Both the position numbers and the translations under genes were made by a program. Positions 13,938 through 22,916 of a stretch of DNA of 64,000 nt are shown piece after piece. Positions within the stretch are counted from its first letter, which is position 1; every line of letters begins with the position of its first letter. The notes under the pieces were generated by a model, which was not told where the DNA came from, made no database searches, and saw only the letters and a list, made by a program, of their open reading frames with translations. Origin of the DNA: Planctomycetota bacterium (lineage in GTDB: Bacteria > Planctomycetota > Phycisphaerae > UBA1845); NCBI GenBank assembly GCA_024276605.1, contig JAJRWX010000039.1, positions 1 through 64,000 on the forward strand. The letters run 5' to 3'.

Positions 13938-14096
13938 CTTTCCCCTCAAGACTGATTACTGAATCTGGGATAGTCTAACGTAGAACCGTCGTTCTTATAG
14001 CCCATTCCTTTCTTCAGCTATGTTTGTGGTCAAACCCGTTTGAATTTAGTATAGGCATCTTGGCTGGGTTGTCAGACATTGAGAAGGGAAAAAAGT

Positions 14097-15416
14097 ATGG
14101 ATTTCTATCAGCGAACACGTCGCACGGGTCTTGGTATCGTGGTGATCGTTATCGGTCTAATGTCTTCTACGACGGCTTACGGCGATGATTGGCCCCAGTG
14201 GCGTGGGCCGCGGGCTGACGGTGTGTGGCGAGAGAAGGGGATTATCACCAAGTTCGCTAAGCCTCAACTGGATTATGTCTGGCGAACGCCGATCAGTAGC
14301 GGTTACAGTGGACCGACCGTGGCGGATGGGCGGGTGTACGTGACCGATCGAGTGCGTAAGCCGAAACAGGTCGAGCGTGTCCACTGTCTCAACGCCAAGA
14401 CCGGTAAGATTCTCTGGACGCATGTCTACGACCGAGACTACCGCGATGTCGGTTACGATGCCGGTCCGCGTGCTTCCGTGCTCATCAATGATCAGCGGGC
14501 TTATTCACTAGGTGCGATGGGTGATCTGTTTTGCTTTGATGCAATGAGCGGTTCCGTGCTATGGCAAAAAGACCTTGCGAAAGAATATAACATTCGTATG
14601 CCGATTTGGGGAATCGCAGCCTCACCGATCATTGAACAAAACTTAATTATCGTGCAAATTGGTGGGGAGCCGGATGCGTGTTTGGTGGCTTTCGATAAAG
14701 TTACCGGGAAGGAGAAGTGGCGGGCACTTTCAGATCATGCTTCATATGTGGCACCGCTCATGGTTACGCAAGCTAAGCAGCGCGTGTTGGTTGCGAAGAC
14801 GGGTGAAAATATTGTTGGTCTTAATCCGCTAACCGGGCAGGTTCATTGGCGCCTTCCACATCCGCCTACACAAATGGTCATTGGTATAGCCAGCCCGGTG
14901 CTTCATAGAGACAAAATGTTTTTTACGACGTTTTTCGACGGCTCGTTACTCATCCAGTTGAATCAGCATGAATTAACCGCTGCGAAAGTGTGGCAACGAG
15001 CTGGGCCTAACGAGAAGGATACCATCGCGTTGCATTCAATCATCTCCACGCCGTTCTTAAAGGGTGATTATATTTACGGTTGCGATAGTTATGGTGAGCT
15101 TCGATGCCTAAAGTTAGCCACCGGTGATCGCGTATGGGAATCGCTCGATGCGGTACCTAAAGCGCGTTGGGCGACGATACATTTCATCGAGCACGAAGAC
15201 GACGTATGGTTGTTCAATGAAAAGGGCGAACTCATTATCAGCAAGCTCTCGCCCCAAGGCTATAAAGAAATAAGTCGAACGAAGTTGATCGAGCCTACGC
15301 GGGACCAACTAAACCGCCGAGGCGGCGTATGCTGGTCACACCCAGCCTTCGCCAATAAACATGTTTTCGCCAGGAATGATAAGGAAATCGTCTGCGCGAG
15401 CTTGGGGAAGAAGTAA
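14097..15416 (+). CDS. Secreted PQQ/BamB-like beta-propeller protein
   Basis: The signal peptide (IVVIVIGLMSSTTAYG) is followed by DDWPQWRGPRADGVW, a signature of planctomycete PQQ-like propellers. Repeats such as GRVYVTDRV, VHCLNAKTGKILWTHVYD, LFCFDAMSGSVLWQ, LVAFDKVTGKEKWRALS and LRCLKLATGDRVWESL mark propeller blades. The start ATG at 14097 has an AAGG site; a TTG 18 bp upstream is also in frame. These proteins are usually periplasmic scaffolds. No quinoprotein active-site residues can be assigned. The gene ends 42 bp from the tracrRNA terminator on the opposite strand. Confidence 0.88.
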   Translation: MDFYQRTRRTGLGIVVIVIGLMSSTTAYGDDWPQWRGPRADGVWREKGIITKFAKPQLDYVWRTPISSGYSGPTVADGRVYVTDRVRKPKQVERVHCLNAKTGKILWTHVYDRDYRDVGYDAGPRASVLINDQRAYSLGAMGDLFCFDAMSGSVLWQKDLAKEYNIRMPIWGIAASPIIEQNLIIVQIGGEPDACLVAFDKVTGKEKWRALSDHASYVAPLMVTQAKQRVLVAKTGENIVGLNPLTGQVHWRLPHPPTQMVIGIASPVLHRDKMFFTTFFDGSLLIQLNQHELTAAKVWQRAGPNEKDTIALHSIISTPFLKGDYIYGCDSYGELRCLKLATGDRVWESLDAVPKARWATIHFIEHEDDVWLFNEKGELIISKLSPQGYKEISRTKLIEPTRDQLNRRGGVCWSHPAFANKHVFARNDKEIVCASLGKK

Positions 15417-15457: not shown

Positions 15458-15566
15458 AAAAATGGCCGCCCTGCATTGCATGGCGACCGGTCGCTCCGCG
15501 GAGCGTGGCCTGCGAATCTTTCTTCTTGTTACGAAAAGACTACCAGGCCGGAGTCGATTACACTAT
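15458..15566 (-). ncRNA. tracrRNA of the type II-C system
   Basis: On the minus strand a TTGACA/CACAAT promoter is followed at once by AGTGTAATCGACTCCGGCCT, the anti-repeat (from 15564). It pairs with the 3' part of the CRISPR repeat with one G:U wobble. After a small bulge, CGTAAC pairs with the repeat 5' end GTTGCG, also with one wobble. A tail with the self-complementary stretches CGCTCCGCGGAGCG and GCGACCGGTCGC follows. A terminator hairpin (GGTCGCC/GGCGGCC, 15488-15464) ends with ATTTTT. The estimated size is about 108 nt. This layout (5' anti-repeat, hairpins, terminator) is that of known tracrRNAs. The ends are predicted, not measured. Confidence 0.9.
15464..15488 (-). terminator. Rho-independent terminator of tracrRNA
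   Basis: This is a seven-base-pair stem (GGTCGCC with GGCGGCC, one G:U) with an 11-nt loop, followed by ATTTTTG on the minus strand. Confidence 0.75.
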
Positions 15567-15594
15567 TCACATTGTGCCAACGATTTTGTATCAT
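15566..15594 (+). promoter_or_regulatory. Predicted cas9 promoter
   Basis: TTCACA (15566-15571) and TATCAT (15589-15594) are 17 bp apart, each with five of six consensus bases. The start would fall near 15601, leaving a ~35-nt leader with GAGGG before cas9. It overlaps the tracrRNA promoter on the other strand. Confidence 0.6.
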
Positions 15595-15599
15595 GTCAA
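15571..15599 (-). promoter_or_regulatory. Predicted tracrRNA promoter
   Basis: On the minus strand TTGACA (15599-15594, full consensus) and CACAAT (15576-15571, four of six) are 17 bp apart. The predicted start at 15564-15566 coincides with the first base of the anti-repeat. Confidence 0.7.
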
Positions 15600-15635
15600 A
15601 TGCTTCGTACATACATTTTTGCGAGGGATTCTCAC

Positions 15636-18600
15636 ATGGACGAACGTACATTGGGGCTTGACTTGGGATCGACTTCCGTCGGATGGGCATTAATTGACGA
15701 TGTCAGTATCATTGCTGCCGGAGCACGTGTTTTTCCAGAAGGTGTTGATCCAGATAAAAAAGGAGGTGAGAAGTCCAAAACCGCAAATCGGCGAGACTCC
15801 CGCAGTATGCGCCGTCAGATCGCCCGAAGGGTACGCCGAAAGCAACAGTTGCAGTTGCTTCTGATCCAACACGGGCTTCTCCCCAAGTCTCCAGACAAGT
15901 TGGAAGAAGTACTATCCATCAACCCATACCCGTTGCGTGGGCGGGTACGGCATGAAAAACTGACACCATACGAAATCGGTCGGATTTTCGTACATCTCAA
16001 CCAGCGACGGGGCTTTTTGTCCAATCGCAAGGCTGATAAAGCTAAGGCCAAAGAAGCCAAGGGCATGCTGGCTGAGATCGGCACCTTAGCGGATCGCATT
16101 AAGCTAGCCGACTGTGAAACGCTTGGCGAATATCTTTATCAGCTTGGGTGCGATTTTAATCACCGCCAACGTATCCCTGAGCCTACAGAAAAGCAACTCA
16201 AACAGGGCCACTTACGTGACACGGTACGCCGCCTCCATACGCGTCGCAGTATGTATGTAAAGGAATTCGAGACAATCTGGGAGAAGCAACGGCGGTATTA
16301 CTCAAACATCCTAACTGACGATCTAAAGCGTAAGCTGTATGACCCCATTGCGGACACCAACTGGGTATGCAAAGGCCTCATTTTCGGCCAGCGTAAGATT
16401 TACTGGCCTAAGAGTGTCGTAGGTCGGTGTGAACTTGAACCGAGACTGAAAAGATGTCCCAAGGCCGACCGCGCCGCTCAGTTTTTTCGTCTGCTTCATG
16501 AAGTCAACAATATACGCATCACCGACACAATAGTTCGTGAAGAACGGACGCTGACTTCCGAGGAACGATCCGCGCTGCTCAGATATCTCAGTAATGCCAA
16601 GGAACGCACATTTAACGACATTCGCAAGAAGCTTGGCTTCCTAGAACATGTTCGGTTCAATTACGAACGCGCTGAAAGAGGAAAGCTCAAAGGGCACGTA
16701 ACCGATGCTGCCCTAAGCAGTAAAAAGGCTCTCAACAAGCGATGGGCTTCACTACCTGATGAAACAAAAGATGGCATTGTAGACATTCTAATAAACGAAG
16801 ATCAGGAAGATGTTGCGATTCAGCGATTGATGAGTGACTGCCAGCTAACTCAAGACGAAGCGGAGCGAGCACTGGCTGTCAACCTCCCAGATGGCTACAT
16901 GAGCTACTCGCGCGTCGCCATAGTCCGTTTGTTGCCATACCTGGAACGGGGTTTTCTACTTATGGCCGACGATGCATCTAACTCTGCACTACACGCCGCT
17001 GGGTACCTCCGTCCCGACGAGCGCGAAGTTCGGCAGCATAAATTCCTCCCACCAGCCCCTGATCTACCCAATCCGATTGTAAGGCAGGCGATGGTCGAAG
17101 TCCGCAAATTGGTGAATGCCGTCATCCGCGAGTATGGGTGCCCTGACAATATACATGTTGAACTGGCCCGCGAGACTAAGAAATCCCTTGAACAGCGCAC
17201 GCAGATTCGTTTCGAAAATGCCCGTCGGCGTGACGAGCGTGAGAAGGCGGGCGAGGAGATTGAGAACATGGGATGCAAGTCTACGCGGGGTGCCAAGAAC
17301 AGGTATATGCTTTGGCGGGAGCAAGAAGAGTGTTGTGTGTATTGTGGAAACAAATTAAGCCAGGCGCAATTATTTGGAGGAGAAGTCGATATAGACCACA
17401 TCCTGCCGCGATGGCGCAGTTTGGATGATTCTATGGCCAATAAAGTTATCTGCCATAGATCATGTAACGCTTCAAAAGAAGATCAAACACCAAGAGAGTG
17501 GCTCGAAGATTCCGACCCCGATCGATATGAACGTGTCTTGAGATTGGCAGACAAACTCCCTTATAATAAGCGAAGGAAGTTTATCCTGAAAGATATTGTC
17601 CTGGATGATTTTGTTCAACGTCAATTGAAAGATACTCAGTATATCACGCGATTGACTACACAATACTTGAAGTGCTTAGGCGTTCGGATTGTAACTCTGC
17701 GCGGGCAGACGACCGCTGACTTACGCCATTACTGGGGTCTCAATGTTCTCGACCCCGAAGACCGAGGGCGAAAGAACCGTGCTGACCATCGTCACCACGC
17801 TATCGACGCGGTTGTCATTGCACTGACCGACCACAAGCGTCTTCATGCACTGGCTAAGTGTAGGGGCAAGGACATCAAACCACCTTGGCCAACCTTGCGT
17901 GATGATTTGGTCCGCACCGTGGCATACATAAACGTCTCACATCGTGCCCAACGGCGCCTTTACGGTGCGTTTCATGAGGATACCTTCTATGGTCCCACGC
18001 TAAAACCTTGGAAGGCCGCATCGGGGAACGACCGTCCATGGGCCGATAATTGGATCGAACAGGATGGCGCGTTGGTACGTAGAAAACCGATCACTGAAAT
18101 CAAGAATTGCAGGCATTTGGAAAAAGTGCGTGACTCTGCCATTCGTACAATACTTCGCGACCATCTGCGCGACCAAGGTATTGATCCCGAGCAGTCTACC
18201 AAGTACCCCGGTGACGCTTTCAAGGGAAGCAATGCGCCGCACATGCCATCAGGTGTCCCCATTATGAAAGTCCGTATGATCGAAGAGGGGCTTACTTTTC
18301 GGTATGTCAGTAGTCGCCGAGACCGTCAATACGTCAAGCCCGGCAATAACCATCATATCGTCTACTACGTTGTCGGCGCGGGCGAAAAGGAGAAATGGAT
18401 GGCAGAAGTGGTCACTATGTGGGCAGCGGCCTTGAGAGGGCGAAATGGTCAGCCTCTCGTCGATCGCTCTGATCAGAATGGAGCACGGTTCATAATGTCG
18501 CTGGCCATCGGCGAGGTGTTCCAAATTGACGATGGCAACTCGCAACGACTGCTATGTATTGTTAGGAAAATAGATCAGCGTAGTAAGAGGATTGATTACA

Positions 18601-18737
18601 AGCTGCACACTGATGCGCGGTCGTCCGGTGACATCAACAAGGATAATCTCTATCTGACTGCTGATAACATGCGTCAGTTGAACGCCCGTAAAGTTACTGT
18701 GGACCCCCTGGGTCGAATTCGACGAGCGAACGACTAA
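15636..18737 (+). CDS. cas9: Cas9, type II-C RNA-guided endonuclease
   Basis: The start ATG at 15636 follows GCGAGGGATTCTCAC and gives 1033 residues, the size of compact type II-C Cas9s. The frame is open further upstream, but that part overlaps tracrRNA. Domains: RuvC-I LGLDLGSTSVGWALI (D9), arginine-rich bridge helix (about 48-70), REC lobe, RuvC-II NIHVELARE (E509), HNH EVDIDHILPRW (H588) with N602, RuvC-III HRHHAIDAVVIAL (H721, D724), then the C-terminal PAM-interacting region. All catalytic residues are intact. Within HNH, C567/C570 and C606/C610 form a likely zinc site. It cuts DNA matched by crRNA:tracrRNA guides. The PAM cannot be read from sequence. It is followed by cas1 after 48 bp. 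Confidence 0.97.
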   Translation: MDERTLGLDLGSTSVGWALIDDVSIIAAGARVFPEGVDPDKKGGEKSKTANRRDSRSMRRQIARRVRRKQQLQLLLIQHGLLPKSPDKLEEVLSINPYPLRGRVRHEKLTPYEIGRIFVHLNQRRGFLSNRKADKAKAKEAKGMLAEIGTLADRIKLADCETLGEYLYQLGCDFNHRQRIPEPTEKQLKQGHLRDTVRRLHTRRSMYVKEFETIWEKQRRYYSNILTDDLKRKLYDPIADTNWVCKGLIFGQRKIYWPKSVVGRCELEPRLKRCPKADRAAQFFRLLHEVNNIRITDTIVREERTLTSEERSALLRYLSNAKERTFNDIRKKLGFLEHVRFNYERAERGKLKGHVTDAALSSKKALNKRWASLPDETKDGIVDILINEDQEDVAIQRLMSDCQLTQDEAERALAVNLPDGYMSYSRVAIVRLLPYLERGFLLMADDASNSALHAAGYLRPDEREVRQHKFLPPAPDLPNPIVRQAMVEVRKLVNAVIREYGCPDNIHVELARETKKSLEQRTQIRFENARRRDEREKAGEEIENMGCKSTRGAKNRYMLWREQEECCVYCGNKLSQAQLFGGEVDIDHILPRWRSLDDSMANKVICHRSCNASKEDQTPREWLEDSDPDRYERVLRLADKLPYNKRRKFILKDIVLDDFVQRQLKDTQYITRLTTQYLKCLGVRIVTLRGQTTADLRHYWGLNVLDPEDRGRKNRADHRHHAIDAVVIALTDHKRLHALAKCRGKDIKPPWPTLRDDLVRTVAYINVSHRAQRRLYGAFHEDTFYGPTLKPWKAASGNDRPWADNWIEQDGALVRRKPITEIKNCRHLEKVRDSAIRTILRDHLRDQGIDPEQSTKYPGDAFKGSNAPHMPSGVPIMKVRMIEEGLTFRYVSSRRDRQYVKPGNNHHIVYYVVGAGEKEKWMAEVVTMWAAALRGRNGQPLVDRSDQNGARFIMSLAIGEVFQIDDGNSQRLLCIVRKIDQRSKRIDYKLHTDARSSGDINKDNLYLTADNMRQLNARKVTVDPLGRIRRAND

Positions 18738-18748
18738 ACCAGTAGTGC

Positions 18749-18786
18749 TGCCTCGACGATGTCAATATAGGAGCATCGTCGAGGCA
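18749..18786 (+). promoter_or_regulatory. Hairpin with ribosome-binding site in its loop, at the cas1 start
   Basis: A perfect 13-bp inverted repeat (TGCCTCGACGATG 18749-18761; CATCGTCGAGGCA 18774-18786) encloses a 12-nt loop containing AGGAG (18769-18773). The last base of the stem is the A of the cas1 ATG. If folded, the site is exposed but separated from the start codon by the stem. Without folding the spacing is 12 nt, longer than usual. Confidence 0.7.
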
Positions 18787-19676
18787 TGATTAAACGAACC
18801 ATCGAGATTTCGTCCGGACCAACGTACCTGTCGGTTAAAAACCAGCAGCTTGTGGTTCGCCGTGAGCAAGAAGTCGTCGGCTCGGTGCCCTTCGAGGACA
18901 TCGGTATCGTGATTGTCGATCACCCGGCAGTCACGTATACACACGGAGTGCTCACCAGTCTAGCTCGTGTTGGTGCCGTGTTAGTGGCATGTGGAGCGGA
19001 CCACCATCCAGCGACGCTAGTGCTTCCCATCGAGGGCAATTCACTGCATACCGAGCGATTGCGCTTTCAGGTTGAATCAACAAGACCAAGCAGCAAACGC
19101 ATCTGGCAACAGATTGTACAAGCCAAGGTTCGAGCGCAGGCAATGACGCTTGGGTCTGGTAACCCCGGATACAAGAAGCTCATGACCATGGCTACCGAAG
19201 TACGATCCGGTGATCCCGCCAACATCGAGGCTCAGGCTGCTAAGGTTTACTGGAAAATGCTTTTTCATAATGAGGACTTTCATCGTAACCGAGATGGTGC
19301 TCCGCCCAATAATCTACTCAATTATGGTTACATGGCGCTCCGCGCTGCTGTCGCTCGTGCCATCTGTGCGGCGGGTCTGCACCCGTCGATCGGTTTTCAT
19401 CACCGGAACCGCTACAACGCTTTTTGTCTAGCCGATGATCTCATCGAGCCGTTTCGTCCATTGGTCGATGCACAGGTTCTAAGCTTATGGCAAGGTGGCA
19501 AAATGGATGTGGATCGTGAAGCTAAAACTCATTTACTTGGCGTGTTGACCGCAACCGTCAAAACAGGTGGAGAAACCGGTCCACTAATGGTGGGCCTGAC
19601 GAAGATGATGGCCTCGCTGGTCCGCGTTCTGGAAAGTACTGAAAAGAAGTTGGAGATTCCGTCGCTGTGTTTGTAA
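18786..19676 (+). CDS. cas1: Cas1 integrase, type II
   Basis: Cas1 integrates new spacers together with Cas2. The 296 residues start with MIKRTIEISS, the usual type II N-terminus, which fixes the start at 18786. The metal ligands are in NIEAQAAKVYW (E148), GFHHRNRYNAF (H205/H206) and LADDLIEPFRP (E221). PNNLLNYGYMALRAAVARAI is the conserved helix of the family. All active-site residues are present. It lies 48 bp after cas9, and the gap is almost entirely a hairpin. Its end overlaps the cas2 GTG start by 10 bp, so cas1 and cas2 are probably coupled. Confidence 0.97.
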   Translation: MIKRTIEISSGPTYLSVKNQQLVVRREQEVVGSVPFEDIGIVIVDHPAVTYTHGVLTSLARVGAVLVACGADHHPATLVLPIEGNSLHTERLRFQVESTRPSSKRIWQQIVQAKVRAQAMTLGSGNPGYKKLMTMATEVRSGDPANIEAQAAKVYWKMLFHNEDFHRNRDGAPPNNLLNYGYMALRAAVARAICAAGLHPSIGFHHRNRYNAFCLADDLIEPFRPLVDAQVLSLWQGGKMDVDREAKTHLLGVLTATVKTGGETGPLMVGLTKMMASLVRVLESTEKKLEIPSLCL

Positions 19677-19996
19677 GCGGGTATCGTTGCATGTGGATAC
19701 TGACCATGTTCGACTTGCCTGTTACTACCCAAAAGGCTAGGCGGGCGTACACTCAGTTCCGCAAGAAACTTTTGCAAGATGGGTTCAGTCGGTTACAATA
19801 CTCGGTCTATGTTCGCCACTGCGCAAGTCAAGAAAACGCCGAAGTACACGCCGGACGGATCGAACGCTCTTTGCCCGACGACGGCGAAGTACGGATCATC
19901 ACAATCACTGACAAACAGTTCGAGCGCATGCATATATTTTGGGGAAAAAGACGTAAACCGCCTGATGTCCCGCCACAACAACTCGAACTTTTCTGA
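19667..19996 (+). CDS. cas2: Cas2, adaptation protein, type II
   Basis: Cas2 bridges two Cas1 dimers in spacer integration. The 109-residue product contains MWILTMFDLPVTTQKARRAY (conserved Asp after the first strand), FRKKLLQDGFSRLQYSVYVR and GEVRIITITDKQFERM. The GTG at 19667 is preferred because related type II-C Cas2 proteins begin with 'SGYRxMW', which is present here. The ATG at 19691 would give 101 residues. It overlaps cas1 by 10 bp, and the array begins 50 bp downstream. No csn2 or cas4 follows, which is consistent with subtype II-C. Confidence 0.95.
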   Translation: MFVSGYRCMWILTMFDLPVTTQKARRAYTQFRKKLLQDGFSRLQYSVYVRHCASQENAEVHAGRIERSLPDDGEVRIITITDKQFERMHIFWGKRRKPPDVPPQQLELF

Positions 19997-20045: not shown

Positions 20046-22916
20046 AGTGTAATCGACCCCGGCCTGGGAGCAATCCGCAACATCGCACCACGCACATCCG
20101 CCGGAGCCGAGAGTGTAATCGACCCCGGCCTGGGAGCAATCCGCAACACATGGCAATCTGTAGTCTGATGGTCTGCCAGTGTAATCGACCCCGGCCTGGG
20201 AGCAATCCGCAACTAGCTGAAAGGATGAACAGTGGAAAAACAAAGTGTAATCGACCCCGGCCTGGGAGCAATCCGCAACAGTACACCGGGCATCAAAAAA
20301 AGTGCCAAGAGTGTAATCGACCCCGGCCTGGGAGCAATCCGCAACGCAATCGTTGACCATCAAAACATCGGCAGAGTGTAATCGACCCCGGCCTGGGAGC
20401 AATCCGCAACTCTATGCTCAACTCACCTGGATCAAATAACAGTGTAATCGACCCCGGCCTGGGAGCAATCCGCAACACTGATGGGAAGGTGTTCGTCAAC
20501 CCCGATAGTGTAATCGACCCCGGCCTGGGAGCAATCCGCAACGCAGTGCCTGTAGATACTGGCAACCTCAAAAGTGTAATCGACCCCGGCCTGGGAGCAA
20601 TCCGCAACGCTGACCACGAGTTTCCGGCCACGTAGCTTAGTGTAATCGACCCCGGCCTGGGAGCAATCCGCAACGTAGGCTGCGCAACAGCGAGATACAT
20701 AAGTAGTGTAATCGACCCCGGCCTGGGAGCAATCCGCAACTTGGCCACGATCTTACGCTTGGCTACCGAGAGTGTAATCGACCCCGGCCTGGGAGCAATC
20801 CGCAACGTAGGCTGCGCAACAGCGAGATACATAAGTAGTGTAATCGACCCCGGCCTGGGAGCAATCCGCAACCATTATTTACCAATCGTTTGAAAGCGAT
20901 AAAGTGTAATCGACCCCGGCCTGGGAGCAATCCGCAACAAAACTGAAGAGCGCCCAGCATACATTGCAGTGTAATCGACCCCGGCCTGGGAGCAATCCGC
21001 AACGATGGTATACTGGTGTCAAGTCTTTAATTAAGTGTAATCGACCCCGGCCTGGGAGCAATCCGCAACATGATAGAGTCTTGCCGACATACTTAGCGTA
21101 GTGTAATCGACCCCGGCCTGGGAGCAATCCGCAACCCCTAACACGTTTATCTCATTTTCATTTTAAGTGTAATCGACCCCGGCCTGGGAGCAATCCGCAA
21201 CAGAAGGGACGATTCCTGCGCAGTCCGTCAGAGTGTAATCGACCCCGGCCTGGGAGCAATCCGCAACCATCATCGATGATGTACTCGGTTCCGCGAGAGT
21301 GTAATCGACCCCGGCCTGGGAGCAATCCGCAACCGGTATAAGTATCCAATGATTTGCGAATCGAGTGTAATCGACCCCGGCCTGGGAGCAATCCGCAACA
21401 GTATTTACACTTGGTGGTGGTTGTCTAAGAGTGTAATCGACCCCGGCCTGGGAGCAATCCGCAACCGCAACAGTACAGGAATGGTGCGACGAGGAGTGTA
21501 ATCGACCCCGGCCTGGGAGCAATCCGCAACGTTAGTTTCAGGGGTAAACTCGCCCCTGTGAGTGTAATCGACCCCGGCCTGGGAGCAATCCGCAACATCT
21601 TCCGGCATCGTGTCGTAATATGCCGAAGTGTAATCGACCCCGGCCTGGGAGCAATCCGCAACCGCTGCGTTTGCTCAACAGTTACGGTGATTAGTGTAAT
21701 CGACCCCGGCCTGGGAGCAATCCGCAACATCGAATGTGTTATATTCGTCTTTGTATAAAGTGTAATCGACCCCGGCCTGGGAGCAATCCGCAACATGGAC
21801 ATTCGCGGTGCGTACAGGGTTGGTAGTGTAATCGACCCCGGCCTGGGAGCAATCCGCAACAGAACGGTGAACACGAACTCACTCTACTGAAGTGTAATCG
21901 ACCCCGGCCTGGGAGCAATCCGCAACACTCCACACAGTCCAGCCAAAATCTTCCTCAGTGTAATCGACCCCGGCCTGGGAGCAATCCGCAACGGTGGACG
22001 CGGCAAGGTGATGAACCGATGGAGTGTAATCGACCCCGGCCTGGGAGCAATCCGCAACTGTAGTTCGGACGAGTCCTGCGGAATCATAGTGTAATCGACC
22101 CCGGCCTGGGAGCAATCCGCAACACCGGATGCACGCTCTTGGCCAGATCAAAAAGTGTAATCGACCCCGGCCTGGGAGCAATCCGCAACGCAGGCTTCGC
22201 GCGTGGGGATTTTCAATATAGTGTAATCGACCCCGGCCTGGGAGCAATCCGCAACGCCCAACGCGACGCCCCTATAGCCTCCCAAAAGTGTAATCGACCC
22301 CTGCCTGGGAGCAATCCGCAACACAGTGACCGGTCGGCAGCGACGGACCCGAAGTGTAATCGACCCCGGCCTGGGAGCAATCCGCAACATAACTCGCTAT
22401 GATGCAACAACCACCCGAAAGTGTAATCGACCCCGGCCTGGGAGCAATCCGCAACTTATCCACCATTGTAGAGCCGCGATATGTTAGTGTAATCGACCCC
22501 GGCCTGGGAGCAATCCGCAACTGTGGAAATAATCGCGACCAAAGCGAATCTAGTGTAATCGACCCCGGCCTGGGAGCAATCCGCAACTAGGCAAGGCGCC
22601 AGGTCGTAACCTACCGCAGTGTAATCGACCCCGGCCTGGGAGCAATCCGCAACGCTTGAGTCCGGAGCAAAGCGCGGAGAATTAGTGTAATCGACCCCGG
22701 CCTGGGAGCAATCCGCAACGACATGTAATGACACGACGAGTGCCTGAGTAGTGTAATCGACCCCGGCCTGGGAGCAATCCGCAACACCGCCACCTGCGCT
22801 ACCCAATTGTCAGTAGTGTAATCGACCCCGGCCTGGGAGCAATCCGCAACAGTAATTACGACTTTAGTAATACTAAACTTAGTGTAATCGACCCCGACCT
22901 GGGAGCAATCCGCAAC
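20046..22916 (-). CRISPR. CRISPR array, 44 repeats and 43 spacers
   Basis: The 36-bp repeat starts AGTGTAATCGACCCCGGCCT and ends GGGAGCAATCCGCAAC on the plus strand. Spacers are mostly 30 bp (some 29, two of 31), giving a 66-bp period. Repeat 35 (22287) has one G-to-T change and the last repeat (22881) one G-to-A change; the others appear identical. Spacers 10 (20675-20704) and 12 (20807-20836) are identical. tracrRNA complementarity shows that the crRNA strand is the minus strand, whose repeat begins GTTGCGGATT like other type II-C repeats. Transcription therefore runs towards cas2. Counting was by eye, repeat by repeat. Confidence 0.97.

Follow-up and report, generated by a model that had tools for sequence, protein, structure and literature searches.

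Divergent promoter sequences superimposed between tracrRNA and cas9 in a compact, II-C-like CRISPR locus of Planctomycetota

How the levels of Cas9 and tracrRNA are set in native type II-C loci has been little studied. The window analysed here, a stretch of 64,000 nucleotides (64 kb) from a Planctomycetota bacterium, contains a CRISPR locus in which sequences resembling the promoters of both genes face opposite ways on the same bases, which raises the questions of whether both are promoters, why they overlap and whether their overlap would balance the two RNAs.

Locus layout and the superimposed box pairs

We found that cas9 (15636..18737, plus strand, 1033 aa, with its ATG at 15636; TIGR01865 cas_Csn1, E = 6e-187) is followed by cas1 (18786..19676, plus strand; TIGR03639 cas1_NMENI, E = 1.2e-78), cas2 (19667..19996, plus strand; TIGR01573, E = 6.2e-20) and a CRISPR array on the minus strand (20046..22916), in which 44 repeats of 36 nt alternate with spacers about 30 nt long, csn2 and cas4 being absent between cas2 and the array. 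Upstream of cas9 and divergent from it lies a tracrRNA gene (15458..15564, minus strand), whose anti-repeat (15528..15564, minus strand) was recognised by its complementarity to the repeat and by the inverted repeats I1-I25, and which ends in a terminator formed by a 3' hairpin and a T-run at 15462-15458. With cas9, cas1 and cas2 as its only cas genes and with such a tracrRNA, the locus is a compact type II system, II-C-like as judged by gene content. The first-pass annotation had described tracrRNA as often placed elsewhere in II-C loci; a position upstream of cas9 is not unusual in that subtype.

The anti-repeat of the minus strand pairs with the entire 36-nt repeat at -57.4 kcal/mol, against -42.8 kcal/mol for the reverse orientation, and a tracrRNA on the plus strand was rejected for this weaker duplex and for the absence of a terminator-like end. 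The minus-strand tracrRNA could be aligned in 13 relatives, with a T-rich 3' end in nearly all of them; the consensus hairpins of this alignment include five base pairs with two-sided changes, and the fold has a z of -3.98. A search of Rfam gave no match. Pairing, alignment and hairpins thus bear out the earlier placement of tracrRNA on the minus strand, reading leftwards and starting at the anti-repeat. From the anti-repeat pairing we infer that the crRNA sense is likewise the minus strand (repeat GTTGCGG...ACACT, with GATTACACT as its 3' end). Within the array, one spacer (GTAGGCTGCGCAACAGCGAGATACATAAGT) is present twice, at 20675-20705 and 20807-20837, two units apart. The repeat farthest from cas2 (22882-22916) differs by a single substitution, having CGACCTGG in place of CGGCCTGG; this would point to the old end of the array lying there, though the crRNA sense would run from that side.

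Between the first base of tracrRNA and the cas9 ATG there are 71 bp, and both box pairs, each with a spacer of N17, fall within 34 bp of this gap (15566-15599), as had been noted at first pass and as we find at base resolution. Reading leftwards, the tracrRNA promoter has its -35 element TTGACA at 15594..15599 (minus strand), in which columns 1-5 are near-invariant among relatives, and its -10 element CACAAT at 15571..15576 (minus strand), preceded by TGG at 15579-15577 and so having a TG (TGGCACAAT) in front of it, as in a TG-extended -10. Reading rightwards, the putative cas9 promoter has TTCACA at 15566..15571 and TATCAT at 15589..15594 (both plus strand). Each -10 has one base in common with the opposite -35, and the implied starts, near 15601 on the plus strand and at 15564/15565 on the minus strand, diverge from points about 37 bp apart. 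The 5' end of tracrRNA is predicted at base 15564, with which the anti-repeat begins, and the predicted 5' UTR of cas9, about 35 nt long, contains a Shine-Dalgarno-like GAGGG at 15623-15627. At the level of sequence, one set of bases thus carries two core promoters of opposite direction, and it follows from this geometry, as had been proposed, that only one polymerase would be bound at a time.

Candidate sites were scored with a weight matrix based on approximate frequencies for E. coli sigma-70, which may not fit this phylum; its scores are relative and rank sites without being a measure of promoter strength. On this scale the cas9-facing site is the sole rightward match of at least 8.5 between 14.0 and 15.76 kb, with no other rightward site at this threshold in the 1.6 kb upstream of cas9, and it is among the three matches of at least 11.8 on both strands of the 64-kb window. 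In a random 72-bp gap, the probability of such a site was 0.002 rightwards and 0.006 leftwards, and both occurred together in 0 of 5000 gaps. The window contains such a superimposed divergent pair only once, and 150 Markov-resampled windows contained none. A plain consensus scan gave two matches against 0.4 expected in the 260 bp that surround the gap, and over 2 kb three against 2.2, which is not significant. The superimposed pair in the window exceeds chance, and matrix ranking, gap probability and resampling agree with the initial reading in this respect for the cas9-facing boxes.

Two promoter box pairs with different conservation among relatives

Cas9 relatives were gathered within the order, class and phylum of the window, and GTDB contigs supplied more of them; in a search of genome contigs and viral contigs, a single Cas9 sequence gave no match and an alignment used as query gave matches. 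In 57 of 67 relatives, GTCAA (of the -35) lies 28-31 nt beyond the anti-repeat, which was located in these loci by its own sequence, independently of the promoter, and the motif is almost absent elsewhere within 110 nt. A spacer of 16-18 bp after GTCAA leads to a -10 whose start would be the first base of the anti-repeat. In the same-genus locus L008, whose Cas9 is 78% identical over the N-terminal part, the tracrRNA -10 is CATATT, with TGG retained and the number of matches in the tracrRNA boxes unchanged. Conservation at a fixed distance from the anti-repeat, which had been expected for the tracrRNA pair, makes this promoter almost certainly real as a sequence element.

Two further observations concern tracrRNA-type promoters elsewhere. 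In L134, some 780 bp upstream of the usual arrangement, there is a second anti-repeat end with GTCAA at 627-670 (the same as L159, 633-676), possibly a duplicated tracrRNA promoter region. L033 (G000:C47:37332-40427) is a second cas9 relative in the genome of the window, 33% identical and apparently decayed, with one TAG and one TAA in frame; an anti-repeat and a tracrRNA-type promoter, TTGACT-N16-TATTAT, still stand upstream of it.

The cas9-facing pair has fared differently near the window. In L008 it is weakened to CTCGCA-N17-TATCCT (7 of 12 matches), with a TG-extended -10 gained, it was not found in L002, L003 or L005, and it is not kept in most of the window's clade. The earlier prediction that both pairs would be conserved among close relatives thus holds for the tracrRNA pair, which is kept, but not for the cas9 pair, which is weakened or absent nearby.

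Farther away, a different pattern emerges. Of 77 loci, 9 have a cas9-facing site scoring at least 10 inside the tracrRNA promoter interval, where 0.29 would be expected and 500 shuffles gave 2 at the most, and the register in which the cas9 -10 abuts the tracrRNA -35 (-6/-5) occurs in 7 of the 77, against 0.14 expected. By position, the sites peak at -10 to -1 from the tracrRNA -35 (8 of 72 loci), the other 10-base bins holding 0-3. Six of the seven loci in this register (L134, L129, L049, L123, L127 and L125) form one clade and the window (L001) stands apart from it; as that clade accounts for the greater part of the excess across species, independent origins are few, with five changes on the tree at a score of at least 10, and the window itself, which prompted the test, is one of those counted. 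Within the clade, identity is 87% in the cas9 -10, 68% in the cas9 -35 and 38% in the spacer between them, a contrast that speaks for both promoters being under constraint in these loci. The persistence of both box pairs in an independent Cas9 clade, despite divergence of the intervening DNA, favours the first-pass annotation.

Taken from these sequence data, the cas9 promoter within the overlap is probably genuine. The best-surviving alternative, which we consider unlikely, is that only the tracrRNA promoter is real and that the cas9 boxes arose by chance, cas9 being transcribed by read-through or from an unrecognised promoter, either of another sigma factor or internal to the anti-repeat. 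In its favour is the lack of conservation in L002, L003, L005 and most of the window's clade; read-through is possible from the upstream gene at 14079-15416, which is co-directional with cas9; and a distal cas promoter, located where tracrRNA has its 3' end, is able to stand in for the proximal one in group B Streptococcus (PMC12216829). The anti-repeat also holds a TACACT facing cas9, a weak match (4.7), which was rejected as a cas9 promoter with a score of only 4.7-6.1. Set against this alternative are the rank of the site among the top three sigma-70 matches on either strand of the 64 kb, its expected place with a proper leader and Shine-Dalgarno sequence, the gap probability of 0.002, and the recurrence of this register in another clade, where the boxes are conserved.

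Probable packing around a tracrRNA promoter fixed to the anti-repeat

Anti-repeat and cas9 lie close together, with a median gap of 72 bp and a gap of at most 91 bp in 58 of 77 loci, 91 bp being our estimate of the minimum for two complete core promoters and a minimal leader side by side. The first 35 bp of such a gap are filled by the tracrRNA promoter if its place is set by the anti-repeat, so a cas9 promoter placed there must share DNA with it, and the overlap is close to forced by the short gap. We propose that a conserved sigma-70-type promoter sets the tracrRNA start at the first base of the anti-repeat, and that in this genome the cas9 promoter would be fully superimposed on it, each -35 abutting the opposite -10. 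Since polymerase fits the 34 bp in one orientation at a time, initiation of Cas9 mRNA and of tracrRNA would be either/or at the same site. By E. coli precedent, the two outputs would probably be near-independent at ordinary occupancy, and if one direction were activated or close to saturation, the other should drop. The overlap would then be a matter of packing around a tracrRNA promoter that is held in place, with later stabilisation in some lineages, and no dedicated balancing device. We assign this explanation as a whole, built on sequence comparison, a probability of about 0.75.

The first-pass annotation had gone further and seen in the superimposition a built-in balance, that is, a selected regulator holding the ratio of Cas9 mRNA to tracrRNA fixed. 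Mutual exclusion does follow from the geometry, both boxes are maintained in one clade, and overlapping divergent promoters regulate the EcoRV system (PMC5333194) and plasmid pLS20 (PMC4207663). A balance does not follow, however, because mutual exclusion yields competition, and the cas9 boxes are not conserved near the window. The amounts of the two RNAs would, moreover, be set by the stability of tracrRNA and not by initiation alone. The known cases rely on a regulator or on strong activation, whereas in five unregulated E. coli bidirectional promoters basal activity was too low for appreciable competition, and reducing one direction hardly altered the other, competition appearing only upon activation (PMC12825309). 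The balancing role was thus inference on the part of the annotation, and we regard it as quite improbable.

The least favoured reading, that the inverted TTGACA/TGTCAA is an operator for a dimeric regulator and not two -35 boxes, could draw on the inverted repeat of about 34-36 bp formed by these hexamers in L125 and L127, but it is very improbable, as most loci have lost the left arm but keep the right arm fixed relative to the anti-repeat, the hexamers stand 16-18 bp from -10-like hexamers, and no regulator gene is found between the annotated cas genes of the locus.

Comparison with known systems and significance

Overlapping divergent promoters are known elsewhere. In EcoRV (PMC5333194), as would be the case in the window, two divergent units of one immune system have overlapping polymerase sites, and their transcription is coupled; unlike the window, where a small RNA is one of the products and there is no known regulator, EcoRV has two protein products and is regulated by a C protein. 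In pLS20 (PMC4207663), the divergent promoters Pc and Pr, of different strength, likewise coincide on the same DNA, but a regulator and DNA looping form a switch, neither of which is evident here. In the E. coli bidirectional promoters (PMC12825309), as predicted for the window, a short piece of DNA starts RNA both ways with one polymerase at once. They have a symmetric, shared -10 and starts that typically lie 10, 18 or 23 bp from each other, whereas in the window each -10 (15571-15576 and 15589-15594) is separate and abuts the opposite -35, with predicted starts about 37 bp apart, so the pair differs from the shared -10 type of Warman et al. Finally, in type II-A the tracrRNA and cas promoters, as proposed here, interact upstream of cas9, with a longer tracrRNA, tracr-L, guiding Cas9 to Pcas (PMC11417352), while the link proposed here is polymerase exclusion; from the identified promoter, the window's tracrRNA would start at the anti-repeat. 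A crRNA aimed at the promoter region was rejected as well, no spacer having at least 10 bases in common with it. We found no description of overlapping or divergent cas9 and tracrRNA promoters in II-C within the open-licence literature searched, and the case is apparently undescribed there.

In L114, L035 (Blastopirellula marina DSM 3645), L115 and L133, the tracrRNA -35 read rightwards is TTGTCA, followed after N17 by TACCAT or a -10-like hexamer. A -35 shared by both directions is a weak lead (P about 0.02 per set), and it may take the place of the superimposed form in a few relatives with longer gaps between anti-repeat and cas9 (L114, L035 and L115).

The conservation among relatives suggests a rule by which tracrRNA would start at the first base of the anti-repeat, with its TTGACA promoter about 29-30 nt beyond, and which may help to predict tracrRNA ends in uncultured lineages. 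It is doubtful that superimposed divergent promoters are a recurrent, regulator-free design for Cas9 and tracrRNA in this phylum and beyond; if they were, polymerase exclusion would couple the supply of effector and guide cofactor, with the cas9 promoter maintained either on those very bases or, possibly so in L114, L035 and L115, with a -35 in common. If the overlap is real in RNA, the 34-bp segment would offer a minimal test of how an immune nuclease may be coupled to its RNA cofactor without a regulator.
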